Assembly (NCBI GenBank): GCA_937989675.1
Contig: CALKRK010000076.1
Location: 1 to 56,403 of the forward strand
Source: an uncultured Arenicella sp.
GTDB lineage: Bacteria > Pseudomonadota > Gammaproteobacteria > Arenicellales > Arenicellaceae
Reading direction: 5' to 3'
DNA: 56,403 bases
How positions within the stretch are numbered: position 1 is the first letter of the stretch; every line of letters begins with the position of its first letter. This document shows positions 4,228 through 33,056 of the stretch, piece by piece. Below the pieces are notes generated by a model. That model did no database searches. It saw only the letters and a program-made list of their open reading frames with translations, and had not been told where the DNA came from. The position numbers were made by a program, and so were the translations under genes.

Positions 4228-6198
4228 TCAAAAATCTTTACGTGCACTCAGGGAATAGTAGACATGATCAAAATCACTAATCCCGATCGTCTTATTAATG
4301 CTTGCATTAAGACTTATTTGGCTCGGGAATAAAAAATTGGCCCCGAGTAACAAGTTTCCGTAATCGGAATCGAGTTTTTCTAATGGCACGCTAAATATTG
4401 TCGAACCCACGCCAGACGTTGTTAAACCACTTTGCCTAAAGTCGATCGAACTGGTATCCGCTAGAAATCGGCCGGTCAACGCTCTCGAACCATCTTCAAA
4501 TTCATGCACCCAACTTGCTTTAGCCTGTGGAATAAACACGCCCCAATTTAAGCTAAACGGCTTGGAGATACTAAAACTGACGTCCGACGTAAACGACTCC
4601 AAATTGTAGTCATCAATCTCTAACGCCAAGCCAAACCCAACCTCGTTAGTGTTAGTATTTTCAGAAAAGCGTTTTATATCCGTGTCTACGTAATTTAAAC
4701 GCGCTGACAAATCGAGATTCACGTAGTCTCCAAACGTGCGACTCACACCGACACTCAAGATCTTTTGATCAGAATCGATATTGCTCAACACTTGCTGATC
4801 AACATCTGTACTAAAAGCGGTGTAAGCCATACGACGAACATTCTCAAGATCTCCATCACCAAATCCAGCAATCACATCTAAATTCAAATTATTTGAAAAC
4901 GCTTTAGCCGCATACATAGTGAACGTTTTCGTTTGTATATCAAGAGAGCCTGTATTACCGGAGAATTCCGACTCTGTCTCACCAAACCCATACGCCATGC
5001 CAGCAACCGTTGAAGAGTTGACCATGTAATCTACTCCGATTGTCATTGACCTACTCCGATAACCAAAACCATTTGACAATTCGCTGACGCCCTTATCGCC
5101 ATCGCCAGTCGTACCAAGAACGAAGGCACCAAAACGACCAGAATCGTCATCACCAGCGGCTCCTCCATAACTCCTATCGGAAGGCTTATTGTCAGCAAGC
5201 AAGCCTTTGGCTGGGTGACTAGCGTCAGAGCTAGCAACGTCTTTGTCGTTTTGTCGAAGGGCCGGCAGTATCGCAGCCAATCTCCCTCCGATGTTGCCGA
5301 CCTGTATTGTGTTAAGAAACGCCAAAGATTGACCTATGTCGCTGTATTGTTTAGCCGCGATCTGCCCAAGCGCGTTTAACTGGTTAGCCCCTTCTTTTTC
5401 GCGATTTATATCAATGCAGCGCTCTACCAAATCAGTCTGCGCCAGGGTGAGATTGCTGCTGCCTCTCAAATCGGTACATAGCGAAGCGAGACTGGATGCA
5501 ACAGACGACTCCGCGGGGAGAGCCTGGACTTCTAATGGTTGATCAAATTCAAAGGGCGCATTTCGAGCCTCTTGCTCTAATCGCTCAAGCTCAGCTAATC
5601 GCCTCTCTTCCGCAAGCCTGCGCTCCTCCGCTTCTGCTTCTCTGCGAGCCTCTTCTCTCTCGCGGCGACGTCTCTCTTCTTCCTCTGCTTGTCGCCTCTC
5701 CTCTTCAGCTTGTCGCCTGGCTTCTTCTTCCGCCTGCAGTCTGGCTTCTTCTTCCGCCTGCAGTCTGGCCTCTTCCTCTGCTTGCAGTCTGGCTTCTTCC
5801 TCTGCTTGCTGCTGAGCCTCTATATCGGCAATTTCCGCCGCCGATAACTCAACTTCGCAGCGCACAAATACACTATTCGCACCGCGGTCTCCACCATCGA
5901 CAAATCGCCCGACTCGACGACACTCGACCGAAGCATCAGTAATTAACTGACGCCCTTCTACAGATTGGGATGGCCTGCCGGTAAAAGTGGATGTTAATGT
6001 AGCCTGATACTCGCAAATACGTAATGTGTTTGTCTGCTCTATTTCCATAAAACCGGTAGGGCAAGCTGTCATCGCTGACGCCTTGGTCGAAAAAAATAGA
6101 AAGCTCGCCAAACACGTCAGCAAGTAATAAATGGCACGGCGCTGCGCGCAACGTGATTGTTGCAGAGCCGAACAATCATAGATGTTCGAAGGGTTCAT
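4228..6198 (-). CDS. Autotransporter-like protein: signal peptide, charged EEARLQAE coiled coil, C-terminal beta-barrel
   Basis: Hydrophobic N-terminus, long E/R/A repeat, C-terminal ~280 aa of alternating beta strands (SMTIGVDYMVNSSTVAGMAYGFGETESEF...) ending in aromatic ...YSLSARKDF. The start may be the track M at 6243 or the internal M at 6198. Confidence 0.75.
   Translation of the reverse strand: MNPSNIYDCSALQQSRCAQRRAIYYLLTCLASFLFFSTKASAMTACPTGFMEIEQTNTLRICEYQATLTSTFTGRPSQSVEGRQLITDASVECRRVGRFVDGGDRGANSVFVRCEVELSAAEIADIEAQQQAEEEARLQAEEEARLQAEEEARLQAEEEARRQAEEERRQAEEEERRRREREEARREAEAEERRLAEERRLAELERLEQEARNAPFEFDQPLEVQALPAESSVASSLASLCTDLRGSSNLTLAQTDLVERCIDINREKEGANQLNALGQIAAKQYSDIGQSLAFLNTIQVGNIGGRLAAILPALRQNDKDVASSDASHPAKGLLADNKPSDRSYGGAAGDDDSGRFGAFVLGTTGDGDKGVSELSNGFGYRSRSMTIGVDYMVNSSTVAGMAYGFGETESEFSGNTGSLDIQTKTFTMYAAKAFSNNLNLDVIAGFGDGDLENVRRMAYTAFSTDVDQQVLSNIDSDQKILSVGVSRTFGDYVNLDLSARLNYVDTDIKRFSENTNTNEVGFGLALEIDDYNLESFTSDVSFSISKPFSLNWGVFIPQAKASWVHEFEDGSRALTGRFLADTSSIDFRQSGLTTSGVGSTIFSVPLEKLDSDYGNLLLGANFLFPSQISLNASINKTIGISDFDHVYYSLSARKDF
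5717..5812. repeat. Four tandem 24-bp coding repeat units (EEARLQAE coiled coil)
   Basis: ctggcttcttcttccgcctgcagt occurs twice exactly in tandem (5717 and 5741), followed by two diverged units. Confidence 0.85.
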
Positions 6199-6672
6199 GG
6201 TGGGGTCCCCGATGTCTGTCCGCTTACAGTGACCCAATTTCACTTCGACGAATCCATGCTAGTCTCAAGAGAGCCGTTCGCATGATTTAAATAGCCGTTT
6301 CTACCCAAACGACGGTTCTTTAATGAAAAAAATACTTGAACAAGCTACGTACAGTAGGGTGTGACGCAGCCCAAGCGTTAATCTCGTTATTGCTTGTTCG
6401 CTAAAACCGTAAACAATCGGTCATAGCCATATACATATTCTAGATTCCTTCAATCCGTTTACAAAACTGGCCCAATTTCCGTTTTGCAACACTATTGCTC
6501 ATACTCAGCCTTAAGGTTTAGTTGAGCTGCAACACCGCTACTACCCATAGCGGCATACCTGTTTCATCCTGACAATTCTCCCCAAGCAATGAGACGGCTC
6601 TCTTTCTGGGAATGGTTCAATTATAGATTACGTACCTTCAAGAATGCTAGCGAGTATCAGGTTTTTAAGTTA

Positions 6673-8655
6673 CTAATTATTAGTTTTCATAGACTTAGGC
6701 GCGAAGTAAAACTCGCCACCTTGATGCCCCCCTGCCGCCAAAGGCGCATAGCGCGGTACCTGCCTAACATTATCTTTTGTCGCTAACGCCACCGAATGCG
6801 CCACCTGAGTTGCTAAGGAATCAGCGTCCAATAGCCCATCATTTTCATTTAAGACACGCAACAAGGCATTAGCAAAGACCGAGTGTTCGCTGTTATCGAG
6901 CGAATCGACTACTGGTTGAACACCACCGGATGACAACGCGACACGCGTCATCAACTCAACATCATTGCTTAAACGCAGTGCCTTTTTCTCAGCCGTTAAG
7001 CCACTGCGTAAGGTAACGATTCCAGATCGCATCAACGAACCCGAATAGCAAGAATCGGCAATCACAATTACGTTGCGCGCAGTCATGGCACGAATCTGAT
7101 CAGTAATACTTGCATTAGAAACCCAACGGACCGCACTTTCCGTAGAACCATCTACAGGAACCCAGTAACCTTGATCGTTTTCAGGATCTACCAACCCATG
7201 GCCTGCGTAATAAACCAGCAAATTATCATTGCTGGTTAACGATTTCCGCATATCTTCCAATGCCGTTAGCATCGCATCACGATTGGCATTAAGCTCAAGG
7301 CGCACCTTAAAACCATATTTTTCTTCCAACACTCGTGCAACTTCCTTGGCGTCGTTAACCGCGGTATCGAGCGGCTCCCAACCCTTCCCAAAGTCGTAAT
7401 CATTATTTCCGATGACAAGGGCGTGGTAATCCCCAAACTTAAAATTGGAACGGGTTAAAGCTCCAGAACCGCGCAACACGATATCAATATCGTCTGATGG
7501 TTTTATCAGTAATCGATGAGCAGTAAGCTCGCCACTAAGGTCAAGCACTTCAAGGTGAAGCTCCAAAACCTCACGCCCCACATCCAATGATTTTAAAAAC
7601 AAACCGTTGGCATCTAGCTCATAGCCTTCGCCATTAATCGTGAACGACTCAACCTTAGAAAAATTCTGGATCGCCCCAACAACATTAACAATTGAACCGG
7701 CTGGTACAGTCGTAGAACTGGTTCCATCAGTGGTTTGAAATTCAGGCCATTTTAGCGCAACGCTCGGAGTACCCGACGGCGTTAACGAAGCAATTTTTTG
7801 CTGCGCTTTTTGCAGTTCACTTTCAGCACCAGCTAGGCGCTCTTCGAGCAAAGAACTAAAACCATTTTCACTTTGCAGCTCTTTTTGTTTCTTTGCGAGC
7901 GTCTTTTCCAACGCCGCTTTTGCGTCATTCACCGCTGAATCTAACGCTTTCTTGAGTTCAACAATCTCTCTCTTGAGATTCAATACCGACTGTCGAGAGC
8001 GCTGTAAATCTGACTGCAATACTTCAGATTGACGCAGCGCTGAATCCGCTTTTCTTCTTTGAACTTCCAATTCTGCTTGAAGCTCTTCTATGCGCAACTG
8101 ATCTTGTTTCTGAATATTCTCGAATACCGACGCATACGCAATTTCATCTTCATCCAGACCCGATGCTTGTCGATAGAGGTTCATCGCTTGAACCAAATCT
8201 TTGTCAACTCCCAGACCTAATTCATATAAGCGGCCGAGGCTCATCTTAGCTGGACTGTATTCTTGTCTAATAGCCCGCTCATACCACATCACCGCCATTT
8301 TGTAGTCTGGCGTCTGCCCTAGCCCTTTCTCAAATATCTCACCAACAAAATACTGAGCTTTAGCATCACCTTGTAGTGCGGCCTCCTGCCAAACATTAAG
8401 AGATGAAGCCATATTAGCTCTGTCAAATTTGACGTAATCACCACCCTTAATCTCGCATTCATTAGCCGACGTTTTTGCTGGCCGCTTGCGACTCAGATAA
8501 GTACGATTAATACCTAGTTGACGGACTTTTCCCGGCAACAAACAATCAACAATCGCGGTTTGTTCAGCGGTAAGCGTCGCCGCTTTTGCACTCACGATGT
8601 TCATCGTAAGAACCAGCAACGAAGCCGCACTAACTAAGAGAACACCGGTTCGCAT
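6673..8655 (-). CDS. Secreted caspase-family (peptidase C14) protein with N-terminal SEL1-like repeats and a coiled coil
   Basis: Catalytic His motif LLVYYAGHGLV and Cys motif VIVIADSCYSGS; SEL1-like KAQYFVGEIFEKGLGQTPDYKMAVMWYERAIRQEYSPAKMSLGRLYELGLGV; N-terminal signal sequence. Confidence 0.9.
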   Translation of the reverse strand: MRTGVLLVSAASLLVLTMNIVSAKAATLTAEQTAIVDCLLPGKVRQLGINRTYLSRKRPAKTSANECEIKGGDYVKFDRANMASSLNVWQEAALQGDAKAQYFVGEIFEKGLGQTPDYKMAVMWYERAIRQEYSPAKMSLGRLYELGLGVDKDLVQAMNLYRQASGLDEDEIAYASVFENIQKQDQLRIEELQAELEVQRRKADSALRQSEVLQSDLQRSRQSVLNLKREIVELKKALDSAVNDAKAALEKTLAKKQKELQSENGFSSLLEERLAGAESELQKAQQKIASLTPSGTPSVALKWPEFQTTDGTSSTTVPAGSIVNVVGAIQNFSKVESFTINGEGYELDANGLFLKSLDVGREVLELHLEVLDLSGELTAHRLLIKPSDDIDIVLRGSGALTRSNFKFGDYHALVIGNNDYDFGKGWEPLDTAVNDAKEVARVLEEKYGFKVRLELNANRDAMLTALEDMRKSLTSNDNLLVYYAGHGLVDPENDQGYWVPVDGSTESAVRWVSNASITDQIRAMTARNVIVIADSCYSGSLMRSGIVTLRSGLTAEKKALRLSNDVELMTRVALSSGGVQPVVDSLDNSEHSVFANALLRVLNENDGLLDADSLATQVAHSVALATKDNVRQVPRYAPLAAGGHQGGEFYFAPKSMKTNN

Positions 8656-8693: not shown

Positions 8694-9230
8694 TTACTGC
8701 TGAGCAGCAACCATGGTGGTGATTTCAACACGCCGATTTTCACCAGAGTTTGGTTTGGACGGATCGAGTAATTGCTCTTCACCATAGCCCGCTAACTGCA
8801 ATCTTGCTGGATCAACACCAAAGTTATCGTAAAGGTACTGGCCAACATTGACAGCCCGTTTACCAGAGAGTGCATTATTGTAGTCTTCATGCCCCACTGC
8901 GTCGGTATGCCCCGCTATCTCAAAACTGTAGTTAATCAACTGCTCACTCATTAGTGCTTCACCCAACGGGTTTAACTTAGCTTTGATTTCCTCAGTTAAG
9001 GCATAGGAATCAAACGCGAAATTAACACGCATAGAAATACTTGGAGGGGCTGCTGGAGCCTGATTTTCCTGGCCATTGAGCTTAATTCCACGAAGCTTAA
9101 TTTTAGGTTTTGGTTTCAAGCCATTAATGAATTCTTCTTTAGTGGTGAATTCGCTGTTCTCACTGGCCGCATAACTCAACGTGGTTACAGCCATTAAAAG
9201 CAACGTAGATAGTTTTATAAGCGATCTCAT
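8694..9230 (-). CDS. OmpA-family (peptidoglycan-associating) protein
   Basis: FDSYALTEEIKAKLNPLGEAL...FEIAGHTDAVGHEDYNNALSGKRAVNVGQYL...QLAGYGEEQLLDPSKPNSGENRRVEI. Start moved to MRSLIKLSTLLLMAVTTLSYA (9230), which gives a signal peptide. Confidence 0.92.
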   Translation of the reverse strand: MRSLIKLSTLLLMAVTTLSYAASENSEFTTKEEFINGLKPKPKIKLRGIKLNGQENQAPAAPPSISMRVNFAFDSYALTEEIKAKLNPLGEALMSEQLINYSFEIAGHTDAVGHEDYNNALSGKRAVNVGQYLYDNFGVDPARLQLAGYGEEQLLDPSKPNSGENRRVEITTMVAAQQ

Positions 9231-9231
9231 A

Positions 9232-9588
9232 TCATCCTCCAATATATAAGCAAAAGGTGTCAGAATAGTTAAAGGCATACGCCTTTTTCGAGTTTTTATT
9301 AGTCAAAATTGGAGTTTGTGCCACAGCGAGGCTCCAATCATGCTCAGCTACAATCAAAATGCCATCCTGCCAACATCTCAAAGTCTTATCTGCGCTGCGA
9401 ACGCTCTTTTTGTCGAACGTAAAAGCGTCAGAACGCTTGGCCTCCGAAACACTGGTGCCAGCTGATTTCGGCGCGGCGGCCGCCCCGGTAATAAGAACAG
9501 TAGAATCCTGCTTTAAGTCTGCTTGTGCGACACACGGTATACCAAGTAATAAACAGATTAGCAATGAAGTTCGTTGGAAATGGTTCAT
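9232..9588 (-). CDS. Small secreted hypothetical protein, two Cys in the mature part
   Basis: Start moved to MNHFQRTSLLICLLLGIPCVAQA (9588), a signal peptide. Tightly packed between neighbouring genes in the same direction. Confidence 0.65.
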   Translation of the reverse strand: MNHFQRTSLLICLLLGIPCVAQADLKQDSTVLITGAAAAPKSAGTSVSEAKRSDAFTFDKKSVRSADKTLRCWQDGILIVAEHDWSLAVAQTPILTNKNSKKAYAFNYSDTFCLYIGG

Positions 9589-9610: not shown

Positions 9611-11203
9611 TTACTGAGTGGCGATTTCAAATGAAGCCACACCGAAACGGTTGTTCGTTGCTTTTGCGTACGCCTGTTTTATAACATCCAAGGAATACAC
9701 TGGCAGTTGTTCCAAATCGGGAACTTGTAATTCTGCAGGGAAATCAGTGTCAACGTATTTGGTAGCAAGAAAACAGTGAAGCTGCTCCATCGCCACATCA
9801 GCAACAAATGAGTACTGGTTGGTATCTGGCAGAACCAAACCACCATTCGACGATATAAAGCCATCAGCTGAAAAGCGGTTTGGAAACACTCGAACAAATG
9901 CATCTTCTTGTTGGAAATAACAGTTCAGATAGCCATCGGTATTGGTACTGATATTGACAAAGACTTCCTCGCCAACGCTAAAACTGTCGCCCCCCGCTAA
10001 TGACGCCAATTCAATTTCGATTGGCTTAACGGCCGGGGCTTCATTTACACCTTTTTTCTTTTTCTTCTTTTTATTAAGCTCGGCTTTTAGTTCGAGCTTA
10101 CGCTTGGTGTAAGCCAGTTCATGACCCTTTTCTGAAACTGGCGTGCGGTGCAGAAACGCCGTGTAAAAGTCTAGGTCAATCGCGGCCACTTCAGGTAAAC
10201 CAAGCCGGCGTTTGTATTCAAGAACCGCTAAAAGGTAATCCTCGGTGATATCTTCATCAATTGCACCGTTATAGTAACCACGCGCGGTGAGTTGCAACTT
10301 AAGTGTTCGATGTAACGTACCCATGCTTGAAAGCTGATAGAACCAATCGGAAATCTCTTGTTTAATTTCAGCGTGCTCAGGATCCATGCCTAAGCAATTC
10401 CAATAAGGTAGCTTTGTGAGCTTACCTACTAGCTCGATGGTAGAAAGCTCGACAAGAGCTCTTAATGCCTGGCCAACGGCATCTTTCGAACTACTCGAAA
10501 AGCTGTAGCTCATACCCGTTTTACTTATACCACCATCATAACTGGTAGACGAGCCACGAGTGAAAAGCTCAATTGAGTTCTTAGTAGTGACTCCCGGCAC
10601 CACTGACATGTTATGAGTCGTGATCACGCCCAAATCAATGGTCATGAAGGTCACCGAGCTGCTTGCAGACCTGCCTCCACCGCCGCCCACTGAAGACCCA
10701 TCATTGGTACCGGCTAGCTCAGCTGAAATATCGGCTTGTTTGCGGTAAAGACCATCATCGTATTGGGAGATTGAACCAATCATGTCAAACGGAGGTATGT
10801 CCTCATAAATACCTTTCTTACCAGCCTCGTTAATCAACGAAATTAAGTTGCCTGTGTCTTGCCCGTAGTTGACCAAACGAATCGCTCCACTGCGTTTAGT
10901 CATTTCAGAAATAGTGGAAATTATCATCTGGCGCGTGCCGGCATCCACTTTCTTAGTTTTATCCTTTACCTCTTCAAGCAACATAGCGTAATCAAAACGG
11001 CCAATCCCGAAAGATAAGAATAAATTATCCATGCAACGCAAGCTGTCTCGAAAGTCCGTCGTGTTCTTATGTGGCAATTGATCTGGGCCATTTCGTAACT
11101 GAGCGGCACGCTGCTCCACCCCATTATGTACGCCTGTGGTTATACAGCCAGTCGCAAACGCTGAAATAGCGAAAACGATCAATGTTTTTAGCAAGCGGTT
11201 CAT
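9611..11203 (-). CDS. Outer-membrane lipoprotein: CsgG/HfaB-like N-terminal region, peptidoglycan-binding-like domain, Lys-rich linker, DUF4384-like C-terminus
   Basis: Start moved to MNRLLKTLIVFAISAFATGC (lipobox). CsgG-like layout IYEDIPPFDMIGSISQYD...FMTIDLGVITTHNMSVVPGVTTKNSIEL...VGQALRALVELSTIELVGKLTKLPYW. PG-binding-like LTARGYYNGAIDEDITEDYLLAVLEYKRRLGL. DUF4384-like FSVGEEVFVNISTNTDGYLNCYFQQEDAFVRVFPNRF. Confidence 0.7.
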   Translation of the reverse strand: MNRLLKTLIVFAISAFATGCITTGVHNGVEQRAAQLRNGPDQLPHKNTTDFRDSLRCMDNLFLSFGIGRFDYAMLLEEVKDKTKKVDAGTRQMIISTISEMTKRSGAIRLVNYGQDTGNLISLINEAGKKGIYEDIPPFDMIGSISQYDDGLYRKQADISAELAGTNDGSSVGGGGGRSASSSVTFMTIDLGVITTHNMSVVPGVTTKNSIELFTRGSSTSYDGGISKTGMSYSFSSSSKDAVGQALRALVELSTIELVGKLTKLPYWNCLGMDPEHAEIKQEISDWFYQLSSMGTLHRTLKLQLTARGYYNGAIDEDITEDYLLAVLEYKRRLGLPEVAAIDLDFYTAFLHRTPVSEKGHELAYTKRKLELKAELNKKKKKKKGVNEAPAVKPIEIELASLAGGDSFSVGEEVFVNISTNTDGYLNCYFQQEDAFVRVFPNRFSADGFISSNGGLVLPDTNQYSFVADVAMEQLHCFLATKYVDTDFPAELQVPDLEQLPVYSLDVIKQAYAKATNNRFGVASFEIATQ

Positions 11204-11216
11204 TATCTGCTCTCGT

Positions 11217-11543
11217 CTAACAACGGTTCCCAGCATTAATAACATCGCCAATCACGATCGTTTGCTGTTCGATGTTACCAAAGGTTGGGCGTCGATTAGT
11301 TTCCAAGTTACCGATATCGACTGAACCACATTCGGATTCGGATTGCCCAAGATTTCGTTCCTCAAGATCAATGTAGTCATCGATGCCTTCATGCTGCATT
11401 TGACGCGACTGTGACTTGATACGCGAGATTTTCAGATTAACTTCATCTGACAACGCCAGCTCACCAGCTTGGCCTAACGAACAGAACAAACCGCAAGAAA
11501 TGGCTAGAAGAGCAAGTTTGGTATTTAAAGTAGGACGTTTCAT
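11217..11543 (-). CDS. Small secreted protein with two Cys (CGSVDIGN...GDVINAGNRC); possible HfaA-like accessory or minor subunit
   Basis: Signal peptide MKRPTLNTKLALLAISCGLFCSLGQA; C-terminal ECGSVDIGNLETNRRPTFGNIEQQTIVIGDVINAGNRC; 14 bp upstream of the lipoprotein start. Confidence 0.65.
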   Translation of the reverse strand: MKRPTLNTKLALLAISCGLFCSLGQAGELALSDEVNLKISRIKSQSRQMQHEGIDDYIDLEERNLGQSESECGSVDIGNLETNRRPTFGNIEQQTIVIGDVINAGNRC

Positions 11544-11675: not shown

Positions 11676-14600
11676 CTATTTAATACTCTCGATATTAAGT
11701 CTAGCCTTGCCTTTATAGCCTTTTGCTTTGTTAGTGATGCTGCCATCTACCGTGGTCTCACGCGTAAAATCACCAGTTACTGTCGAATTGATGATGGACC
11801 CGATATCAACATAGGCTTTGCTCTTGTAACCCCTAGCCTGATTACTAATAGAGCCATTAACCGTTGTCTTAACATCCACATTTCCAACGTTCGCGCCACT
11901 CAAAGCATTCACATTGACGTACGCCTTAGTTTTGTAGCCCTTCGATCTATTCGCAATACCACCATTCACCTGGGTATTCATAACAACATTACCGGAAGCC
12001 TTTGAACTGACCATCGAGCCCACATTGACATGTGCCTTGGTCTTAAAGCCACTAGCCCGGTTGTTGATGCCGCCTTTAACGACGGTATTCAGGTTGGCAT
12101 TGCCGCCGACAGAAGAATTGACAATTGAGCCGACGTCAACACGAGCACTGGTTTTGAAACCGCCAGACCGATTACTAATGTCACCATCAACACGCGTATT
12201 CAAAACTAGCCCACCCCCAATATTTGAGCCAGAAACGGAACCTGCGTTCACAACGGCCTTGGTTTTAAAGCCACCCGCCTTGTTGCTAACACCCTTTAAG
12301 CTAGTGTTGATCGACGCGTCTCCACCAAGTGTAGATCCACTTACTGAACCGACATTAGCGTAAGCTTTGTTGAACACACCGGAAGAACGGTTGTTTACGT
12401 TGCCTTTGACGGCAGTCTTCAACTCAATATCACCTTTAGCCGTTGAACCGACCACAGACCCAACGTTTGTTACCGCTTTGGTTTTTAGCCCCGACGCTTT
12501 CGAACTTACAGAGCCATTAATGGTGGTATCAATACTGGCTTTACCTTTGACGGTTGAACCATCGATTGCTGCCACGTTCAATTCAGACTTATTAAGTAGA
12601 CCACTGGCCTTATTACTGATGCTGCCTTTAGCATTCAACTTAACATCAACATCGCCGGTTCGGCTGCCGTCGATCTGTGCAATGTTCGCTTGTGCCTTGC
12701 TCAACAAGCCGCTTGCACTGTTATTCACGTCACCCTGAAGTGTGGCATCCAATACAACATCGCCATCGATGCGCGACTTGTTAATGCCTGCCACATTCAG
12801 TTCAGCTTTAGTAAACACACCAGCCGCTTTGTTGCTTATTCTGCCATTGGCGACCGTCGTCATTTTAGTATCACCGTTAACGCGAGAATTGGTCACTGAA
12901 GCTACATTTGACTTCGCCGAAGCACCTAATCCAGCGGCCAGGTTACGAACACCTTTGTTTATTTCGGTATTGATCTCAGTGTTGCCATTCATCGATGATT
13001 TCTCAATCGTCGCCACATCCATTTCAGCTTTTGATAACAAACCAGCCGCGGTGTTGCTGACATCCCCTTTCAGTGTGGTATCTATTTTAGTATCACCCTT
13101 CAAAGATGACTTCTTGATCGTAGACACGTTTGACTCAGCCAAGGCTAATAAACCTGCCGCTTTATTGGAAACCTTGCCATTAATATTAGTGGTAAGTTCA
13201 ACGTCACCTTGAAGGGTCGACTTTTTAATTGAGCCTACATTACTCTCAGCGAGCGTCAGCATACCGGCCGCTAAGTTGCTTACTTTACCTTTAACAACGG
13301 TATCCAACTTAGCGTTGCCGGTAATTGTCGACTTATGGATTGAACCTGTATTCGCATTGGCGATGGCGAATGCGCCACCAGCAATATTAGAAACAGAGCC
13401 ATCTATTTTAGTGTTAACCTCGGCGTCGCCGCCAAGCTTCGATTTTTTTATTGACCCCGTATTCGAAGTCGCCATCACGCCCACGCCGCCTGCGATATTC
13501 GTGACCGAACCATTGACCTCGGTGTTAATTACCGTTTTGCCTTCAGCACGCGAGTTCACTATTGAGCCGGTGTTCATGTCAGCAAGTGCGATAACGCCAC
13601 CCGCCACATTAACAATCTCGCCGTCGACTTTACTGTTTATCGTTAAGTCCTTTGTCTTCGCCTTATAGGCGGATCCAGCATTCGCTAAAGCAACAGAGCC
13701 AACACCCGCCCCTACATTCACAATACCGCCATCTACCTTACTGGAGATATTCAAATCACCATTTACCTTTGAGCTCTCTGCACCACCTGAATTCAATTTG
13801 GCAACGGCGCCAATGCCACCAGCAACATTAACCGTCGCGCCATTCACATCTGAAACGATATTGGCATTGCCTTTAACCTTCGTATTCGCGATGGCAGCCG
13901 TATTCAAAATTGCCGCTGAACCGATACCACCAGCAACATTAACTGTGGCGCCCTTTACTTTACTACTGACGTTAAGGTCGCCATCAACTTTGGATTTAAA
14001 TACACCGCCTGAATTTGCAATCGCAACGGCGCCAATCCCTCCAGCCACATTAGCCGTCGCGCCAACCACCTCTGACTTGATTTTAGCGTTGCCTTTAACT
14101 TTGCTATTAGCAATCCCGCCAACATTAGCAATCGCCACTGTACCGATACCGCCTGCCACGTTCGCCGTTGCGCCTACGACCTTGTTGTCAATTTCCAAGT
14201 CACCGCCAACCTTAGCTTCATGTGCCGCACCGGAATTAACGATTGCCACCGCACCGACACCACCAGCAACGTTAGCCACCGCACCTTTAATCGAGCTTTT
14301 AACCTTAGCCGAGCCCCCCACATTGGTCTTATTCAAACCACCGGAGTTAGCAATCGCTAAAGTGCCTACACCGCCCGCGATATTAGCAACAGCGCCAACA
14401 ACTTTGCTATCGACAGTTACGTCCCCATCAACTTTTGCTTTACGCACCGTTCCTGAATTCATTACCGCTATCGCTAATTCGCCAGCAGCAACGTTAGCGA
14501 CCGCGCCCTTCAGGTCACTTTTCAATTCGACATTTCCCTTAATATCTGATTTCACCACCGAAGCGGAGTTCAAGTCTGCGTAAGCCAGCATTCCTGCAGC

Positions 14601-16330
14601 CACATTCGCGGTCGCGCCCTGAACCTTATTATCAACTTTAACGTCTCCGCCAATATTCGATTTGACAATTGAACTCGAATTCGCCAACGCCACAGCCAAT
14701 TCACCAGCAGCTACATTCGCGGTGCCGCCGACAATATTGTTCTTAATTTGGGCATCGCCTTTCAGATTAGATTTTTTGATACTCGTGGAATTTAAATCCG
14801 CAACCGCAAGCATACCAGCGGCCACGTTAGCCGTTGCTCCCTTTAGCTTATTATCAATTCGAACATCGCCGTCCAACTTTGATTTTACGATGGAATCTGA
14901 GTTCACAGTCGCGATAGCAAGCTCACCTGCAGCAACATTCACCAAGCCGCCCACTACATCTGTATCGATTTTTGTTGTGCCATCAATCTCTGACTTAGCA
15001 ATTGATCCAAATTTAGTGTCTGCATAGGTAACCGTGCCAGCGGCGACGGTCACCACCCCACCTGTAACTTTGTTGTTTATCTGCGCTTCGCCTTTGACTT
15101 TGCTGTTCGCAATTGCACCAACTTTGGTGTTAGCAACACTCAGCTCTCCAGCAGCAACATTAGCAACACCACCGACAATATCGTTGTTAATCAGAGCTTT
15201 ACCATCAACTTTAGAACGACTAATGGTACCAACATTAACGTTCGCGGCTACTCCGGTGCCCGCAGCAACGTTGGCAACCCCACCGACGATTTTGTTTTTT
15301 ATGCTCGCATCACCTTTAACGTTAGAGCCAAGACTAATAGTGCCCACTTCCGTATTTGCGAGTACGCCTTCGCTAGCCGCAACCGTCACAACACCACCTT
15401 TGATATCGTTTTCTATAGCGGCATCGCCCGATACCTTCGACATGCTTACTGAGCCCACATTTGCATTTACGATAGAATAGTCTGCAACATTGACGGTAGC
15501 CACGCCCCCAACAATTTTGTTCTTAAGCGTGGTATCACCAGACACGTTTGAACCCATCGTAATTGAGCCTACTTCCGTGTTGGTTATCGAAAAATCCCCG
15601 GTTGAAACATTTGCTACACCACCAGTGATCTGATTATCAATGTCAACTGAGCCGCTCACTTTAGACAAATTTGTTACAGAGCCAACGACCGCATTACTGA
15701 TCGATTTATCACCTGTTGAGACGTTTACCACTCCGCCTTTGAGCGTATTGTTTACTTTCAGCTCACCTGACACACTTGCCCCATTGGTTACGCTGGCTAA
15801 CTCAGTATTGGTAATTGAGCTATCGCCGGTAGATACGTTGACCACGCCTCCCTCAATGGTGTTATTAAGCTCAGCCGAACCTGAACTTTTGACTTGAGCA
15901 CCATTCGTAACCGAACCGAGTTTCACTAAACTGCGTGACTTGTCGCCGGTGGCTATGTTAGCTGTACCACCCTTGATGTTGTTGTTGACCTTCAGCTCTC
16001 CATCCACTTTTGCCAAGGTGCTGATCGAACCGATTTCCGTGGTCACTTTTACTTTGTCCCCGGTCGCGACGTTAATCGCGCCACCAACAACATTATTATT
16101 GATCGTTGCTTTTCCGGCTACCGATGACTTGCCAGATACCGTTCCTAAACGTAATTTGCTGTCAGCTTTATCGCCAGTGACAATATTCGCCGCTCCGCCC
16201 TTGATATCATTATTCAAATTCGCTTCGCCGCTAATTTTCGAATTGCTTACAGCGCTAATCTCAGTCGCAGCTTTGGATTCCTCGCCAGTGGATAGCGTAA
16301 CGCTGCCACCTTTGAGTTCAGTATTTGCTT
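11676..16330. repeat. Coding tandem repeats, unit about 108-111 bp
   Basis: Translation shows in-register ~36-37-aa units; neighbouring units are more alike than distant ones (SVSTGD-type, then ANVAGGIG-type, then SNKAAGLL-type, then NRASGFKTKA-type). Confidence 0.85.
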
Positions 16331-16412
16331 CAAGCTCGCCGCTCACATCAGATTCCGCTGTAACTTGACTGGAGACGACCAGGGCGGCGATAAATATGGT
16401 TAGGATTTTCAT
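11676..16412 (-). CDS. Giant secreted repeat protein (1578 aa, about 40 copies of a ~37-aa solenoid-like repeat)
   Basis: Signal peptide MKILTIFIAALVVSSQVTAES. Repeats of the form [V/L]xGDxxINNxVxGGVxNVAxGxxxxAxxNxGSIxxSx over the whole mature length. I see no Cys or Trp. Confidence 0.9.
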   Translation of the reverse strand: MKILTIFIAALVVSSQVTAESDVSGELEANTELKGGSVTLSTGEESKAATEISAVSNSKISGEANLNNDIKGGAANIVTGDKADSKLRLGTVSGKSSVAGKATINNNVVGGAINVATGDKVKVTTEIGSISTLAKVDGELKVNNNIKGGTANIATGDKSRSLVKLGSVTNGAQVKSSGSAELNNTIEGGVVNVSTGDSSITNTELASVTNGASVSGELKVNNTLKGGVVNVSTGDKSISNAVVGSVTNLSKVSGSVDIDNQITGGVANVSTGDFSITNTEVGSITMGSNVSGDTTLKNKIVGGVATVNVADYSIVNANVGSVSMSKVSGDAAIENDIKGGVVTVAASEGVLANTEVGTISLGSNVKGDASIKNKIVGGVANVAAGTGVAANVNVGTISRSKVDGKALINNDIVGGVANVAAGELSVANTKVGAIANSKVKGEAQINNKVTGGVVTVAAGTVTYADTKFGSIAKSEIDGTTKIDTDVVGGLVNVAAGELAIATVNSDSIVKSKLDGDVRIDNKLKGATANVAAGMLAVADLNSTSIKKSNLKGDAQIKNNIVGGTANVAAGELAVALANSSSIVKSNIGGDVKVDNKVQGATANVAAGMLAYADLNSASVVKSDIKGNVELKSDLKGAVANVAAGELAIAVMNSGTVRKAKVDGDVTVDSKVVGAVANIAGGVGTLAIANSGGLNKTNVGGSAKVKSSIKGAVANVAGGVGAVAIVNSGAAHEAKVGGDLEIDNKVVGATANVAGGIGTVAIANVGGIANSKVKGNAKIKSEVVGATANVAGGIGAVAIANSGGVFKSKVDGDLNVSSKVKGATVNVAGGIGSAAILNTAAIANTKVKGNANIVSDVNGATVNVAGGIGAVAKLNSGGAESSKVNGDLNISSKVDGGIVNVGAGVGSVALANAGSAYKAKTKDLTINSKVDGEIVNVAGGVIALADMNTGSIVNSRAEGKTVINTEVNGSVTNIAGGVGVMATSNTGSIKKSKLGGDAEVNTKIDGSVSNIAGGAFAIANANTGSIHKSTITGNAKLDTVVKGKVSNLAAGMLTLAESNVGSIKKSTLQGDVELTTNINGKVSNKAAGLLALAESNVSTIKKSSLKGDTKIDTTLKGDVSNTAAGLLSKAEMDVATIEKSSMNGNTEINTEINKGVRNLAAGLGASAKSNVASVTNSRVNGDTKMTTVANGRISNKAAGVFTKAELNVAGINKSRIDGDVVLDATLQGDVNNSASGLLSKAQANIAQIDGSRTGDVDVKLNAKGSISNKASGLLNKSELNVAAIDGSTVKGKASIDTTINGSVSSKASGLKTKAVTNVGSVVGSTAKGDIELKTAVKGNVNNRSSGVFNKAYANVGSVSGSTLGGDASINTSLKGVSNKAGGFKTKAVVNAGSVSGSNIGGGLVLNTRVDGDISNRSGGFKTSARVDVGSIVNSSVGGNANLNTVVKGGINNRASGFKTKAHVNVGSMVSSKASGNVVMNTQVNGGIANRSKGYKTKAYVNVNALSGANVGNVDVKTTVNGSISNQARGYKSKAYVDIGSIINSTVTGDFTRETTVDGSITNKAKGYKGKARLNIESIK

Positions 16413-16475
16413 GGGTAGGGTTTCCTTGGTTTGGTCTTTTCACAATATTTAACGATTCAGAAACAATAAAGTTTC

Positions 16476-16507
16476 AAAAAAAACGCCACTTTTCGAAAAA
16501 AGTGGCG
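16476..16507 (-). terminator. Intrinsic terminator-like hairpin between the two solenoid-repeat genes
   Basis: Minus strand reads CGCCACTTTT-TTCG-AAAAGTGGCG followed by TTTTTTTT: a 10-bp perfect stem, 4-nt loop and T8 tract. Confidence 0.85.
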
Positions 16508-16535
16508 CCCTTAAAAACAGATGTGACTTGAACCG

Positions 16536-17411
16536 TTACTTAACTGATCCAATCGAAGAACTTGCAGAGCTCTCCTGGCCAGTCGCTAATGTCACTACAC
16601 CACCCAAAATATTGGTATCGATGTTGATTTCACCATCAGCCGTCGTGTTGCTAATCGTGCCGATTTCAGTAATCGCGCTTGATCCTTTACCTGTTGCCAA
16701 GCTAACCACACCAGCTTTGCCAATGACTGTATTAATCTTCGCATCGCCGTTGATCGTGCTATCAGTAATCGATGAGATATTAACAGTACTCGTTGACTCT
16801 TGGCCTGTCGCCAAGGCAACTACGCCACCCTTATCGATAACCGTCGTAGCTGAGATATTGCCCGTACCCTTTGTGCCTTTAAGAGATGAGAGTAGTAGTT
16901 CAGCCGTTGACTGCTTACCAGTTGCTAATGCAACCGCGCCGCCTTTGCCAATCACGGTGTTCAATTCCACTGAACCACCAGTCATTTCAGAACCAGTGAT
17001 CGTGCCAATGCCTACTTTTGCTGTCGCTTCTTGGCCGGTCGCCAGAGATACAACGCCGCCTTTTCCTATATCGGTATTAATCTTTACGTCGTTAACTTTT
17101 GAATCTTTAATCCGATTAACCGTTAGTTCAGACGTCGACTTATTACCGGTCGCTAAACTCACCAATCCGCCTTTACCAACTTTGAGCTGAAGATCAACAT
17201 CTCCATCCAACGTTGAGTTTTCAATAGTGTTTGCTGATAGCTCAGAAGTTGCCTCTTTACCAGTCGACAAACTCACTAAACCAGCCTTGCCTACTTCAGT
17301 TTTAATATTCAACTTTCCGTTCACTTCGCTTTCTGCAAAGCTGTTTGCAGACATACCGAGTGCGGCAATTAAAGAAAGAGCTAGGGTCGTTTTTTTGATG
17401 GTTAGGTTCAT
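16536..17411 (-). CDS. Secreted solenoid-repeat protein (291 aa, about 7 copies of the same ~37-aa repeat class)
   Basis: Signal peptide MNLTIKKTTLALSLIAALGMSANSFAES; repeats like DGDVDLQLKVGKGGLVSLATGNKSTSELTVNRIKDS; ends SSIGSVK. RBS-like ggag upstream of ATG. Confidence 0.9.
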   Translation of the reverse strand: MNLTIKKTTLALSLIAALGMSANSFAESEVNGKLNIKTEVGKAGLVSLSTGKEATSELSANTIENSTLDGDVDLQLKVGKGGLVSLATGNKSTSELTVNRIKDSKVNDVKINTDIGKGGVVSLATGQEATAKVGIGTITGSEMTGGSVELNTVIGKGGAVALATGKQSTAELLLSSLKGTKGTGNISATTVIDKGGVVALATGQESTSTVNISSITDSTINGDAKINTVIGKAGVVSLATGKGSSAITEIGTISNTTADGEINIDTNILGGVVTLATGQESSASSSIGSVK

Positions 17412-28517: not shown

Positions 28518-29195
28518 CTAAAAACACGACTCTGTGTAATTACAGAAATCAACGCGTTCGTCTTGCCCGTTCTCGACGACTCCGTAAAGCTGCACTTCGG
28601 CGTCGGCAATTGACGCATGCTCAGGCAGTAACACTAAGGAGTCTCTCGAGCCACTGGCAAACTCAAACTCGTCGCTTTGCCATACTTCTTTTTCACTCTC
28701 AGCCGAGCGCACACTTAAATAGTATCGCGGGTAACGCACGTCTCTTACTCGCACGATCACCGCCGCCTGACCATCTACAACAGAAAGATCTAAACCTTTG
28801 GTAGAACCACTTGCACTGCGAACAACCGCAGACTGCAAACTCACTAGTTCAACGTTAGCGCTTGTCTCTGATTTTGACAGCCCTTTTATAGCGAATGGCG
28901 CAATACAAACAAGTAAAGCGGCCATCGCAAAAGTAGGTGCTGGCCCCGAAAACATACGACTCAGTTTACTTAGCCACGGCTCTGAACTACCTTGTGGAGG
29001 CACACTTTTAGCACCGCTATTATCCTGTTTCACTAGCCCCAAGCCTAAATTTAGCATTTGAGCCGAACTTACCATCTCCGCCACATCGGGCCGACATAAA
29101 AAATACGCCTCAAACTCTTCTGCGTCACCTTCGTCCAGCTGGTCGAGTATGTAGCGCTGGACGATGGCTTCTAAATTATCTTTATCAATATTCAT
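28518..29195 (-). CDS. Anti-sigma-factor-like single-pass membrane protein
   Basis: N-terminal VQRYILDQLDEGDAEEFEAYFLCRPDVAEMV (anti-sigma-like), then one TM segment (TFAMAALLVCIAPFAI), directly downstream of an ECF sigma gene. Confidence 0.75.
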   Translation of the reverse strand: MNIDKDNLEAIVQRYILDQLDEGDAEEFEAYFLCRPDVAEMVSSAQMLNLGLGLVKQDNSGAKSVPPQGSSEPWLSKLSRMFSGPAPTFAMAALLVCIAPFAIKGLSKSETSANVELVSLQSAVVRSASGSTKGLDLSVVDGQAAVIVRVRDVRYPRYYLSVRSAESEKEVWQSDEFEFASGSRDSLVLLPEHASIADAEVQLYGVVENGQDERVDFCNYTESCF

Positions 29196-29244
29196 AAGCT
29201 ACCTTTTTAACGATGGTGCGTAACCGGTCGGTATTCTCTCACTT

Positions 29245-29835
29245 TTAAAAGTATTTATTTCCCGCACTCTCTTCCCAAAGAGACCTAAACCGCTCTCGAG
29301 CGCGATAAAGCACGCGGTCAAAATGCGCTGGCGTTAAGTCAAACTCCTGACATAACTCCTCCTTGTTATCTCCAATTAAATAGAAACGTTGCAAAATTTG
29401 CTTATCTCTTTCAACACTTAACTCATCCAGCAACCTTGATACACACTGGCTTAATTGTCCATTGGCAAAGGCCTTTTCTGGAGTCGTGCCAGAGTCTACA
29501 ATCTCTCCGGCTTGTTCCTCGCCAAGCATTTGATTTTTGGTTTGCTTTCGTTGCCGCATTATCAGCTGATTTTTTGCTATCTGGATAATAAATGCCGCAA
29601 GCTTTTGCTTATTTCGAAGTTGGTTATCGCGCACTTTCTGCAACACCAACACCCATGTTTCCTGGGCAATATCGCTTGCCAGAGAGTGATCACGAGCTCG
29701 GTTATATAGCATTACTCCGAGGCCACGTTGATATCTGAGCACCATTTCTCGCTCAGCCTCTTGGTCACCCTCAAGAATTCTGCCCACCAAATTTTCGGAG
29801 ACCTGAGCCTCAGTTAATGCATTTTGCGCTGTCAT
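29245..29835 (-). CDS. ECF-type RNA polymerase sigma factor
   Basis: EREMVLRYQRGLGVMLYNRARDHSLASDIAQETWVLVLQKVR...KLAAFIIQIAKNQLIMRQRK; C-terminal region 4-like helix-turn-helix. Confidence 0.88.
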   Translation of the reverse strand: MTAQNALTEAQVSENLVGRILEGDQEAEREMVLRYQRGLGVMLYNRARDHSLASDIAQETWVLVLQKVRDNQLRNKQKLAAFIIQIAKNQLIMRQRKQTKNQMLGEEQAGEIVDSGTTPEKAFANGQLSQCVSRLLDELSVERDKQILQRFYLIGDNKEELCQEFDLTPAHFDRVLYRARERFRSLWEESAGNKYF

Positions 29836-32800
29836 AGCTTACTGTTTTCCAACCCACCTTGAAGTTGAAACCCGGCCCAAAAGTACGGGTCTCTCCAATC
29901 GTTATTTTTGTCTGAATACACGGCTATCTGAGCTTGGCGCAAAGCCTCAGACGCAACTAGACTATCATCTAATAGCCCAGAATAGAATCGAGCGGTCAAA
30001 TTAGCCGTTGCTTTATCTTGTACTTGCCAAAGCGTACCAATGACTTGGCTGGCTCCGCCTTCTATAAAAGCTCGGCTAAGGCTTAACAAGCCTTCGCCGG
30101 CAACTCCTCGGCCAAGTGAGCTCTCACAAGCACTGAGCATAACCAAATCCGCATTGATTTTAGCTGAACTAATCTCTGGTAATAGCCAATAATTGATACC
30201 ATTCTCCGACACCTTAGAAAACATTAGTCCCGAAAGTGCTGGCTCTAGACTATTGAGAAGACCATGAGTTGCAAAATGCAAGATAGAGTGCGGTTCCGCC
30301 ACTTTCTTTAAGAACTGTACTTTGGTTGCTCTATCAGCGACTAGAAGTGATACATTACTACCTGCAATTTTTTGTATCGCCTTTGCCTCCATTGCTGTAT
30401 TTGGCAACCGGACAAAGGTTTCCTGCACATCAACAGTTGAAATAGGATCTGCCACAACAAGTATCTTTCTATCCGCCGAATATTGTCTCGTGTTGGCCCT
30501 ATCCTCAATTGCCAAAATAGATCCAAAAGAAGGCGCATAAGTAATCGCTACTTTACCAATCAGGGGCGTAGACCAATCGTCGAGTATAAGCGGTGAGAAA
30601 GGAAGACCATTGAGCGGGCCATCAGGAACAATAATCAATGTAGCAATTGTTTCTCTTTCTAACCTTCTTGCAATTGGCTCGATAACTTGCGCACTCAAGT
30701 CGATAATCGCTTTTCGTTGTAGCCAAGCATTTGAGTTATCGCGGAGGTTAGGGTGACTAGTAATATGCCACTTCGCTTCATCAACCAGTGCTTCAATCTC
30801 GGCACGTGCTGGTAGTTGATGTAAGGTCGTTTCTTTTTCTCCAATTAGCCACAACCAGCTTTTAGCCCTCCCCAAAAAATAGTATGCAAGCAACTGATCA
30901 CTACTGGTGACCTTCGGCAAAGTTAAAGATTGATTGCCCGTACTCGGTTGCCAAACTATATTTCTTTCATCAAACAAGTCTGTTTCGATTTTCTCTAATT
31001 CTGCGCTGAGCTCGCGCGTAGTATTTATTAGACTCTCCCCGTCGCTTTCAGTATTTCGATACCACTTAGCGGCACTAATCAATATCTTGTCATGGATAGC
31101 ATCACGAGCTTTCGATACATTTAACGAGACATCTGAATCGTTATGCACCTGCCGGATCACTTCGTTCAATGTTCGAGCCTTATAAGACTCAACCAACTTG
31201 AGAGCCTCATTGGAGCGCGCCTCTTCTAACAACAACTCCACATTCAACGCAAATACCGATTTTTGTAGCGCAAAATAGTGCCTACGCAAATCACGTCGCT
31301 TAACCTTAGGAAGAGCTTGTTCAACAATAGAGCGAGCACTACTCAAATAAACTAGTGCTCGTTCGTTTTGGCCTACGCCTCGTGCAACAATCGCTCGGCG
31401 AAATAAGAACTTCGCTTGATCCGGTATAAGGCCTCGTTGACTTATAAACTTAGCAACTCTTGTAGCAAGTTGATCTGCCTCGTTATACGCTCCCAAGGAC
31501 GACAACAGTTCAACGGAGAGGCTAAAATTTTGAGCTAATAATACGTAGTCTTCTGTCTGAGACAGAGATTTTAACGCGGCAATATTTAGTGGTACCGCTT
31601 CCAAAATTCGATTTTGGTCCAGCTCCAATTCAGCAAACATAAGATTGTTTCTTCCCGCTGACCGATCTCTCCCGTTTTTTCTATCGTACTCAATCGCATT
31701 TCGAAAAAGCTTACGTGCTACATCTGGCCTATTTTGAGCAAACGCTATTTCTGCTCTTAGAAACGTAGAAGCCGCTAGCCGTGCTTCCATTTTGTTTGAC
31801 AAATAGAAATTATGCATTCGTTCTGAATAGCTTTCAGCGGCATCAAAATCTCCGAGCCGAACGGAGCTCTCCGCTCTCTCACGCAATAGATAACCGTAGA
31901 GATTACTGCTGCGCTCTTGATCTGCAATAGTCATCGCCGAAAACCGATTAAAAGCCTCGTCAAGGAATTCCTCAGCGATGTATCCCTCCCCAAGTTTGCT
32001 ATAGGCTATCGAAGTATAATAGAGAGCCCAAACTACGTAGACCGGAAAAGAGTACTCTTCCGCTAGAAGTTTTTGTTGCGCGCCATAGGCAATAGCCTTG
32101 GGAAATTGACCAGCCCTCTGGTTGGCCCAGCTTAGGTTACCAGTTGCGTTTAATAAGCCAAAATACCTATTAGCGCTGGCATAGATCGCACTTACCTCTT
32201 CAAATAACTTTAACGCCTCACTGAAGTTCGACTCTCTTGTTAAACTAATCGCGTAATAATTTGCTCCTTTGGCATAGTCGACTAACTCTCCAATCTCTTT
32301 AGCCTCATTCATGCCTCTTAGAAACAAGCTTCTTTTCTCTTCTATATTTGAAGTAAACCGCCCTAGCTGATATAGCGCCTGAACGCGATATCTACTTTTT
32401 CCAACTCCTTTAGCATCAGCTATCTCTGAAGCAAGCTTGCTAGTCCTCTTTACCTCCCCAGTACCAGAAAGAAGTTGCATCAAGACCGATTTAGCATGTA
32501 TCGCCCACTTATGTTGCGGTGTATCGTCTATTACCAACTCCAGTTCCGATATAGCTAGCTCCCTAAATTTCTTAGCATCGTCTCCACCCGAATTTAATGA
32601 TCTTGCCCTCGACTCGCTGGCGCTAGATATCGCTTGAAGAAACATAATATCTCGTTGCAATATTCCGTTACCACCCGATGTGCGATAGTCCACTTTCAAC
32701 GAATATGGACTATCTCGGTCAATGTTATTCGCTCCCTCGATAGTCACAAAACAAACTTCACAATCACTTTTTTTCGCCAATAGAAGTTCATCAAAAAACT

Positions 32801-33056
32801 TGTCGGCAAGAATATTTACCGTCTTAATCGGCGTTTCGTCGTTCTCTGAATACAGAGACAAAATATAATCCGCCGACTTCTGCGATGCTGTAACAACAAC
32901 ATAATCATGCTCACCAAACTCCAACTTAACCTTTAGCGGCTCGGCCAACCCTACCCCTTCGATCACCTTGGGGTTGGCGTGGGCATTCGTGTTGACGAAC
33001 AAAGTTACAAAGGCAGTCAGTGCAAAACTGAGCCTTTTAAAGCTGATGCAAAGCAC
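29832..33056 (-). CDS. TPR-repeat CHAT-domain (clan CD) protease
   Basis: His motif SILHFATHGLL, Cys motif LVMLSACESSLGRGVAGEGLLSLSRAFIEGGASQVIGTLWQV; TPR-like helices before it; N-terminal signal sequence. Overlaps the sigma gene by 4 bp. Confidence 0.92.
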   Translation of the reverse strand: MLCISFKRLSFALTAFVTLFVNTNAHANPKVIEGVGLAEPLKVKLEFGEHDYVVVTASQKSADYILSLYSENDETPIKTVNILADKFFDELLLAKKSDCEVCFVTIEGANNIDRDSPYSLKVDYRTSGGNGILQRDIMFLQAISSASESRARSLNSGGDDAKKFRELAISELELVIDDTPQHKWAIHAKSVLMQLLSGTGEVKRTSKLASEIADAKGVGKSRYRVQALYQLGRFTSNIEEKRSLFLRGMNEAKEIGELVDYAKGANYYAISLTRESNFSEALKLFEEVSAIYASANRYFGLLNATGNLSWANQRAGQFPKAIAYGAQQKLLAEEYSFPVYVVWALYYTSIAYSKLGEGYIAEEFLDEAFNRFSAMTIADQERSSNLYGYLLRERAESSVRLGDFDAAESYSERMHNFYLSNKMEARLAASTFLRAEIAFAQNRPDVARKLFRNAIEYDRKNGRDRSAGRNNLMFAELELDQNRILEAVPLNIAALKSLSQTEDYVLLAQNFSLSVELLSSLGAYNEADQLATRVAKFISQRGLIPDQAKFLFRRAIVARGVGQNERALVYLSSARSIVEQALPKVKRRDLRRHYFALQKSVFALNVELLLEEARSNEALKLVESYKARTLNEVIRQVHNDSDVSLNVSKARDAIHDKILISAAKWYRNTESDGESLINTTRELSAELEKIETDLFDERNIVWQPSTGNQSLTLPKVTSSDQLLAYYFLGRAKSWLWLIGEKETTLHQLPARAEIEALVDEAKWHITSHPNLRDNSNAWLQRKAIIDLSAQVIEPIARRLERETIATLIIVPDGPLNGLPFSPLILDDWSTPLIGKVAITYAPSFGSILAIEDRANTRQYSADRKILVVADPISTVDVQETFVRLPNTAMEAKAIQKIAGSNVSLLVADRATKVQFLKKVAEPHSILHFATHGLLNSLEPALSGLMFSKVSENGINYWLLPEISSAKINADLVMLSACESSLGRGVAGEGLLSLSRAFIEGGASQVIGTLWQVQDKATANLTARFYSGLLDDSLVASEALRQAQIAVYSDKNNDWRDPYFWAGFQLQGGLENSKL

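Follow-up and report, generated by a model that had tools for sequence, protein, structure and literature searches.

What a CsgG-type lipoprotein that carries its own peptidoglycan-binding domain might secrete is the question raised by one gene of the window, the 56,403-nucleotide stretch of DNA from an uncultured Arenicella sp. that was analysed here. The gene (9611..11203, minus strand) starts with an ATG at 11203, and its frame is open throughout, encoding a lipoprotein of 530 amino acids that was characterized from its ORF, domain matches, a family alignment and an AlphaFold2 model. The domain order is a signal peptide with a lipobox, a CsgG/HfaB-like domain, a three-helix domain of the PG_binding_1 type, a KKKKKKK linker (residues about 383–389) and DUF4384. 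Every peptide quoted by the sequence-only reading, from the lipobox to the DUF4384 region, is located in this ORF, including IPPFDMIGSISQYD (residues 136–149), FMTIDLGVITTHNMSVVPGVTTKNSIELFTRGSS (186–219), VGQALRALVELSTIELVGKL (243–262) and LTARGYYNGAID...YKRRLGL (305–337). The lipobox cysteine, Cys20, is invariant in an alignment of 55 family sequences, in line with an outer-membrane lipoprotein signal. The ORF is not a chance one, because relatives of near or full length occur in other genomes and 19 columns of the alignment are invariant.

The CsgG/HfaB-like domain comprises residues about 48–271 (10391..11062, minus strand). In the window protein alone, the Pfam CsgG family PF03783 matches residues 142–265 with E=0.0016 and 18.3 bits, below the Pfam cut-off of 20.8, while the HfaB family NF037935 matches with E=0.0012 and 18.2 of the 300 bits set for this equivalog. 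When family members were scanned singly, 11 of the 55 matched PF03783 at E<=0.01. Since this sequence evidence is weak, the case for CsgG is built on profile-profile and fold comparison. The 55-sequence family profile was compared by hhalign with a set made of HfaB sequences from an alphaproteobacterial sample and the source genome's own CsgG paralogue, and was aligned over columns 9–270 with Prob 98.9 and E 3.3e-17; this is a single pairwise comparison, for which the probability is a better guide than the E-value. Profile matches to CsgG in the PDB reached only E 0.4–2 (0.4–0.5 for the domain alone).

The AlphaFold2 model, computed from the 55-sequence alignment (pLDDT 82.9, pTM 0.65, most core segments above 90), shows an alpha/beta core, two long hairpins (139–162/175–195 and 201–216/221–236) that flank a central G/S-rich segment, and a C-terminal helix (239–263), and in these elements, as in being a lipoprotein, the protein resembles CsgG of type VIII secretion. 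Cys57 and Cys270 are invariant in the domain. In a Foldseek search of the PDB, E. coli CsgG entries occupy the first 25 ranks (6l7c_A at the top, with E 5.0e-7 and prob 1.00) and PelC and HpaA come next, although the TM-scores to CsgG are modest (0.40–0.57 by target length, rmsd 8–14 A). The proposal of a CsgG/HfaB-like region is thus borne out, and the opposite case named with it, of no CsgG match and no CsgG core, does not hold. The Helicobacter adhesin HpaA, at Foldseek ranks 27–32, has a CsgG-type alpha/beta core in common with the model.

The CsgG channel is a nonameric ring with a 36-stranded transmembrane barrel. In the window protein, the strongest 12-residue stretches with amphipathic alternation of the beta type (227–238 and 153–164) fall in the predicted hairpins or at their edge, and clear alternation of hydrophobicity is confined to short parts of them, so that a membrane-spanning barrel is only suggested. 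In the hhalign alignment the loop that follows the first core strand is about nine residues shorter than in HfaB/CsgG. We take this region to be the site of the CsgG constriction and, because it is shortened, gating would have to differ from that of CsgG if the placement is right.

The PG_binding_1-like domain spans residues about 297–352 (10148..10315, minus strand), where the model shows three helices. Although PG_binding_1 (PF01471) is not significant in the window protein alone, which gives weak NCBIfam matches of peptidoglycan-binding type at 288–350, it is matched in 34 of the 55 members scanned singly, with a best E of 2.9e-13. In the PDB the family profile matches best to an L,D-transpeptidase, SleB and CtpB, in each case to the peptidoglycan-binding domain (E 0.004–0.03). 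DUF4384 (PF14326; residues 408–469, 9797..9982, minus strand) is found in the window protein itself with E=2.2e-7 and 31.3 bits against a cut-off of 27, and this is the sole DUF4384 in the source genome. It is present in 46 of the 55 members, and some members without it retain the CsgG-like part and S1, the small protein described below. Both C-terminal domains proposed by the sequence-only reading are therefore supported, the first through the family and the second directly. The open-access literature yielded no description of a protein in which CsgG is joined to DUF4384 or to a peptidoglycan-binding domain.

The surroundings of the gene, which were not part of that earlier reading of 9611–11203, provide the stronger part of the finding: an operon with repeat proteins. 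On the minus strand of the window the gene order is a 291-aa repeat protein, a 1578-aa repeat protein, S1, the CsgG-like lipoprotein, S2, an OmpA-like protein and a Sel1-caspase protein. From S1 to the Sel1-caspase gene neighbouring genes are 40 or fewer bases apart or overlap, and about 130 bases separate the end of the 1578-aa repeat gene from S1. A promoter scan gave fewer sites than were found in shuffles. The order repeat protein, S1, CsgG-like protein, S2 and OmpA on one strand recurs in distant proteobacteria, and in further regions from other sampled genomes the operon order is identical. With S1 and S2 members gathered by iterated profiles no further than 9 kb from the CsgG-like gene, S1 lies directly upstream of that gene in 46 of 55 loci with enough sequence and S2 downstream of it in 33 of 50; an OmpA-like ORF is near it in 26 of 31, a count in which some ORFs are more distant or on the opposite strand. 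No description of this operon was found in the open-access literature.

The OmpA-like protein (8694..9230, minus strand; Pfam OmpA, E=4.4e-22) is periplasmic, with a C-terminal peptidoglycan-binding domain. Its gene is often followed by one for a secreted DUF2807 (head-GIN) protein; such ORFs, for example L030:12714-13550, are found in about 18 loci. The next gene of the apparent operon in the window (6673..8655, minus strand) encodes a protein with Sel1 repeats and a caspase-like Peptidase_C14 domain (E=1.1e-27), the role of which in the system is unproven. At many other loci, too, caspase-like ORFs are found at most several kb from the CsgG-like gene, and the source genome has only three Peptidase_C14 matches. 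Elsewhere in the window, the protein encoded at 4228–6243 unusually joins a TolA-like Ala/Glu/Arg coiled coil to an autotransporter beta-barrel domain that comes after it, and a similar gene follows the caspase gene in L030. At 28518–33056 (minus strand) the translations point to a large TPR/CHAT-like protein, then a sigma-70-family factor and a possible anti-sigma factor.

S1 is a secreted protein of 108 residues (11217..11543, minus strand), recognized by profiles and by its conserved position upstream of the CsgG-like gene. It has a helix-like N-terminal part and a conserved C-terminal motif, CGxVDIGN...IVIxGDVINxxNxC. When this C-terminus (as CGxVDIGN...VIITGDVINANNxC) was aligned to one unit of the neighbouring repeats, hhalign gave a score of 16.0 with an HH probability of only 2.6%, while none of 60 column-shuffles scored above 10.5 and none of four other families above 9.9; a noisier unit alignment scored 17.6. 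There is thus a hint, at the level of sequence, that the C-terminus of S1 resembles a single solenoid repeat. S2 is a secreted protein of about 118 residues (9232..9588, minus strand) with an LRCWQxGxLI...C motif and without a Pfam or NCBIfam match, and is proposed to be a periplasmic accessory.

The two repeat proteins of the window are both secreted. The larger one (11676..16412, minus strand), the proposed main substrate, has about 43 tandem repeats of 37 residues, and the smaller one (16536..17411, minus strand), the proposed second substrate, about 8 tandem repeats of 38 residues. The period of 37–38 residues was obtained by autocorrelation for both, which rules out a curli-like unit of 22 residues. 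Long ORFs on the plus strand at 12025–17190 are mirror frames of these repeat genes and not real genes.

Tandem-repeat ORFs on the strand of the CsgG-like gene, defined by a period of 28–44 residues and z >=8 against shuffles, lie upstream of it in 32 of 53 loci and downstream of it in 6 of 46; of these six, five have the repeat style of the upstream ones. Some CsgG-like loci have no repeat gene nearby. Across loci the period is 31–39 residues and the number of repeats ranges from 2 (L034, L041) to about 43, with two-repeat proteins at L041 and L127 that are 99–104 residues long. As judged by eye, the upstream repeats share N-x-x-(Q/N)-x-x-x-G-x-x-N-x-x-x-x-x-I-G-(S/N) or a near variant. The repeat proteins have signal-like N-terminal stretches, and the ones that were scanned gave no match to an autotransporter domain.

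A 265-residue stretch of the 291-aa protein, modelled by AlphaFold2 from in-register windows of this protein and related ones, folds as a beta-solenoid with about three main strands per turn; its pLDDT of 95.9 and pTM of 0.90 may be inflated, as can happen with near-ideal repeats. Sequence searches place the repeat proteins in no Pfam or NCBIfam family and give no PDB match at E<=1, and the repeat model has no PDB match by Foldseek at E<=0.001. Given the lack of a Pfam, NCBIfam or PDB sequence match, curlin and Fap were rejected as the identity of the repeats.

The family is patchily distributed. A search among 100 relatives of the source organism gave full- or near-full-length homologs in 8 other genomes; of 18 congeners, 2 have the protein. 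An overlapping set of 56 loci from GTDB species genomes covers gamma-, beta- and alphaproteobacteria, with some loci in records labelled Deltaproteobacteria, Magnetococcales or Myxococcaceae. Laboratory isolates with the locus include Noviherbaspirillum autotrophicum TSA66 (L035) and Azohydromonas lata NBRC 102462 (L049). Among 399 evenly sampled Pseudomonadota genomes, 20 including the source have the CsgG-like domain at E<=1e-10 (19 of 398 without the source). Two matched Azospirillum plasmid records give the gene no annotation other than 'DUF4384 domain-containing protein'. The longer members L129–L132 (584–598 aa) have a divergent S1 and no recognized S2 or repeat gene nearby. The source genome has two more CsgG-family genes, L012 (G000 C55:17544-18128) and L013 (G000 C58:3868-4179), and the stretches examined around them contain no genes for repeat proteins or csgE/csgF-like genes.

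The system shares with curli an operon with secreted repeat beta-proteins. In curli, CsgG and CsgF form the outlet and CsgE is periplasmic, and the number of repeats in CsgA homologs varies from 3 to 62 (PMC12822426). CsgG itself belongs to a larger family of paralogs, according to Dueholm et al. (PMC3521004). Unlike CsgG, the window protein has the additional PG_binding_1 and DUF4384 domains and scores under the Pfam cut-off, and the substrate repeat is 31–39 residues as opposed to about 22 in curli. CsgE (PF10627), CsgF (PF10614) and curlin repeats (PF07012) are missing from the source genome, which is about 80% complete, and from the operon proteins scanned. The repeats are similar to those of curlin (CsgA/B) and FapC in being secreted, imperfect, rich in Asn, Gln and Gly, variable in copy number and predicted to form a solenoid, but they give no Curlin_rpt match and are modelled with three strands per turn. 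FapC and CsgA gave no PDB sequence match to the repeats, FapC is absent among the Foldseek results shown, and no FapF-type exporter was seen in the genomic contexts read.

HfaB, of the Caulobacter holdfast anchor HfaABD, is of the same superfamily, has a small secreted protein encoded just upstream and acts with secreted partners. By profile tests, however, S1 is not HfaA (hhalign Prob 1.2) and the repeats are not HfaD, with no HfaD-like ORF below E 0.39 in a search with the repeat unit model, and the window protein has extra C-terminal domains. By the tests run, the system is neither curli nor HfaABD, and since the features tested differ from both, it is taken here as a putative new form of CsgG-type secretion.

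The locus is probably that of a peptidoglycan-tethered CsgG-type channel, which would export solenoid proteins into a surface fibre or adhesin. The lipoprotein, an outer-membrane member of the CsgG/HfaB superfamily, would likely assemble into a ring, in which two beta-hairpins from each subunit would form the secretion channel as they do in CsgG. The C-terminal PG_binding_1 and DUF4384 domains would be situated in the periplasm, where PG_binding_1, together with the OmpA-like protein of the operon, may tether the channel to peptidoglycan; we infer both the pore activity and this physical tie. The substrates would be the Sec-dependent tandem-repeat proteins encoded directly upstream, which may fold outside as beta-solenoids and build the fibre or adhesin. 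S1 might be the subunit that couples to the channel, caps or nucleates, comparable in function to CsgF/CsgB, and S2 might be the counterpart of CsgE. Of this picture, the computation shows the domain architecture, the CsgG-like fold, the solenoid fold of the repeats and the conserved order of the genes; an oligomeric pore, contact with peptidoglycan, the direction of export, a fibre and the parts played by S1 and S2 are deduced from these.

Export through such a channel is indicated by the CsgG fold, the hydrophobicity peaks of the hairpins, the invariant Cys20 and the frequency of the two C-terminal domains in the family, and by the conserved operon order, the upstream bias of the repeat ORFs, the confident solenoid model and the signal-like stretches of repeat proteins in which, among those scanned, no autotransporter domain was detected. 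It is weakened by the CsgG similarity below the cut-off, the modest TM-scores and the shortened loop, by the absence of CsgE, CsgF and curlin and of the repeat gene or DUF4384 in some members, and by the overconfidence that AlphaFold can show on near-ideal repeats.

PelC, an outer-membrane lipoprotein ring with a related alpha/beta core, serves polysaccharide export, and by analogy with its place in Pel export the CsgG-superfamily fold could instead make a peptidoglycan-linked ring or scaffold without a pore, which anchors surface material or another transporter. The ranking of PelC and HpaA directly after CsgG, the restriction of clear alternation to short hairpin parts and the shortened constriction region would all fit such a scaffold, but CsgG fills the 25 ranks ahead of PelC, two long hairpins flank the G/S-rich segment, and at most loci no further outer-membrane exporter was detected right next to the solenoid proteins. 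We consider this explanation unlikely. Somewhat less likely still is a holdfast-type anchor, in which the channel and its secreted partners would fix a polysaccharide adhesin and not a protein fibre. HfaB is among the closest named families, the order of a small secreted protein and the CsgG-like gene resembles hfaA-hfaB, and HfaB is the putative exporter of HfaA and HfaD (PMC6707917); the failure of the HfaA and HfaD comparisons and an HfaB score of 18 of 300 bits, far from the cut-off, speak against it, and no holdfast genes were noticed in the window.

The association of DUF4384 with the caspase could also be the core of the system, which would then be a module for envelope stress or proteolysis, with the CsgG-like part doing no more than positioning a regulatory domain. 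Such a module is suggested by the caspase-like gene in the window's gene run and near many family loci and by papers on bacterial caspase homologs that mention DUF4384, but we regard it as very improbable: the caspase gene is absent or far away in many loci that keep S1, the repeat gene and S2, and some members that lack DUF4384 have the CsgG-like part and S1 in place.

Returning to the exporting channel, we lean, with less assurance than for export itself, towards an undescribed and widespread analog of curli, made of a self-anchored CsgG-type channel, new solenoid substrates with repeats of 31–39 residues and two new families of small proteins, in which a single repeat-like turn at the end of S1, closed by a predicted disulphide, could cap or nucleate the solenoid. 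Curli is the best-studied bacterial pathway for functional amyloid. If the proposal is true, curli has a sister system in about 5% of sampled Pseudomonadota genomes, with a CsgG-type channel that bears its own wall anchor and works without CsgE and CsgF. Its substrates would be a new solenoid family of naturally graded length, useful for fibre biology, biofilm research and the design of nanopores or biomaterials, and both the replacement of CsgE and CsgF and the effect of repeat number on fibre properties would become testable.
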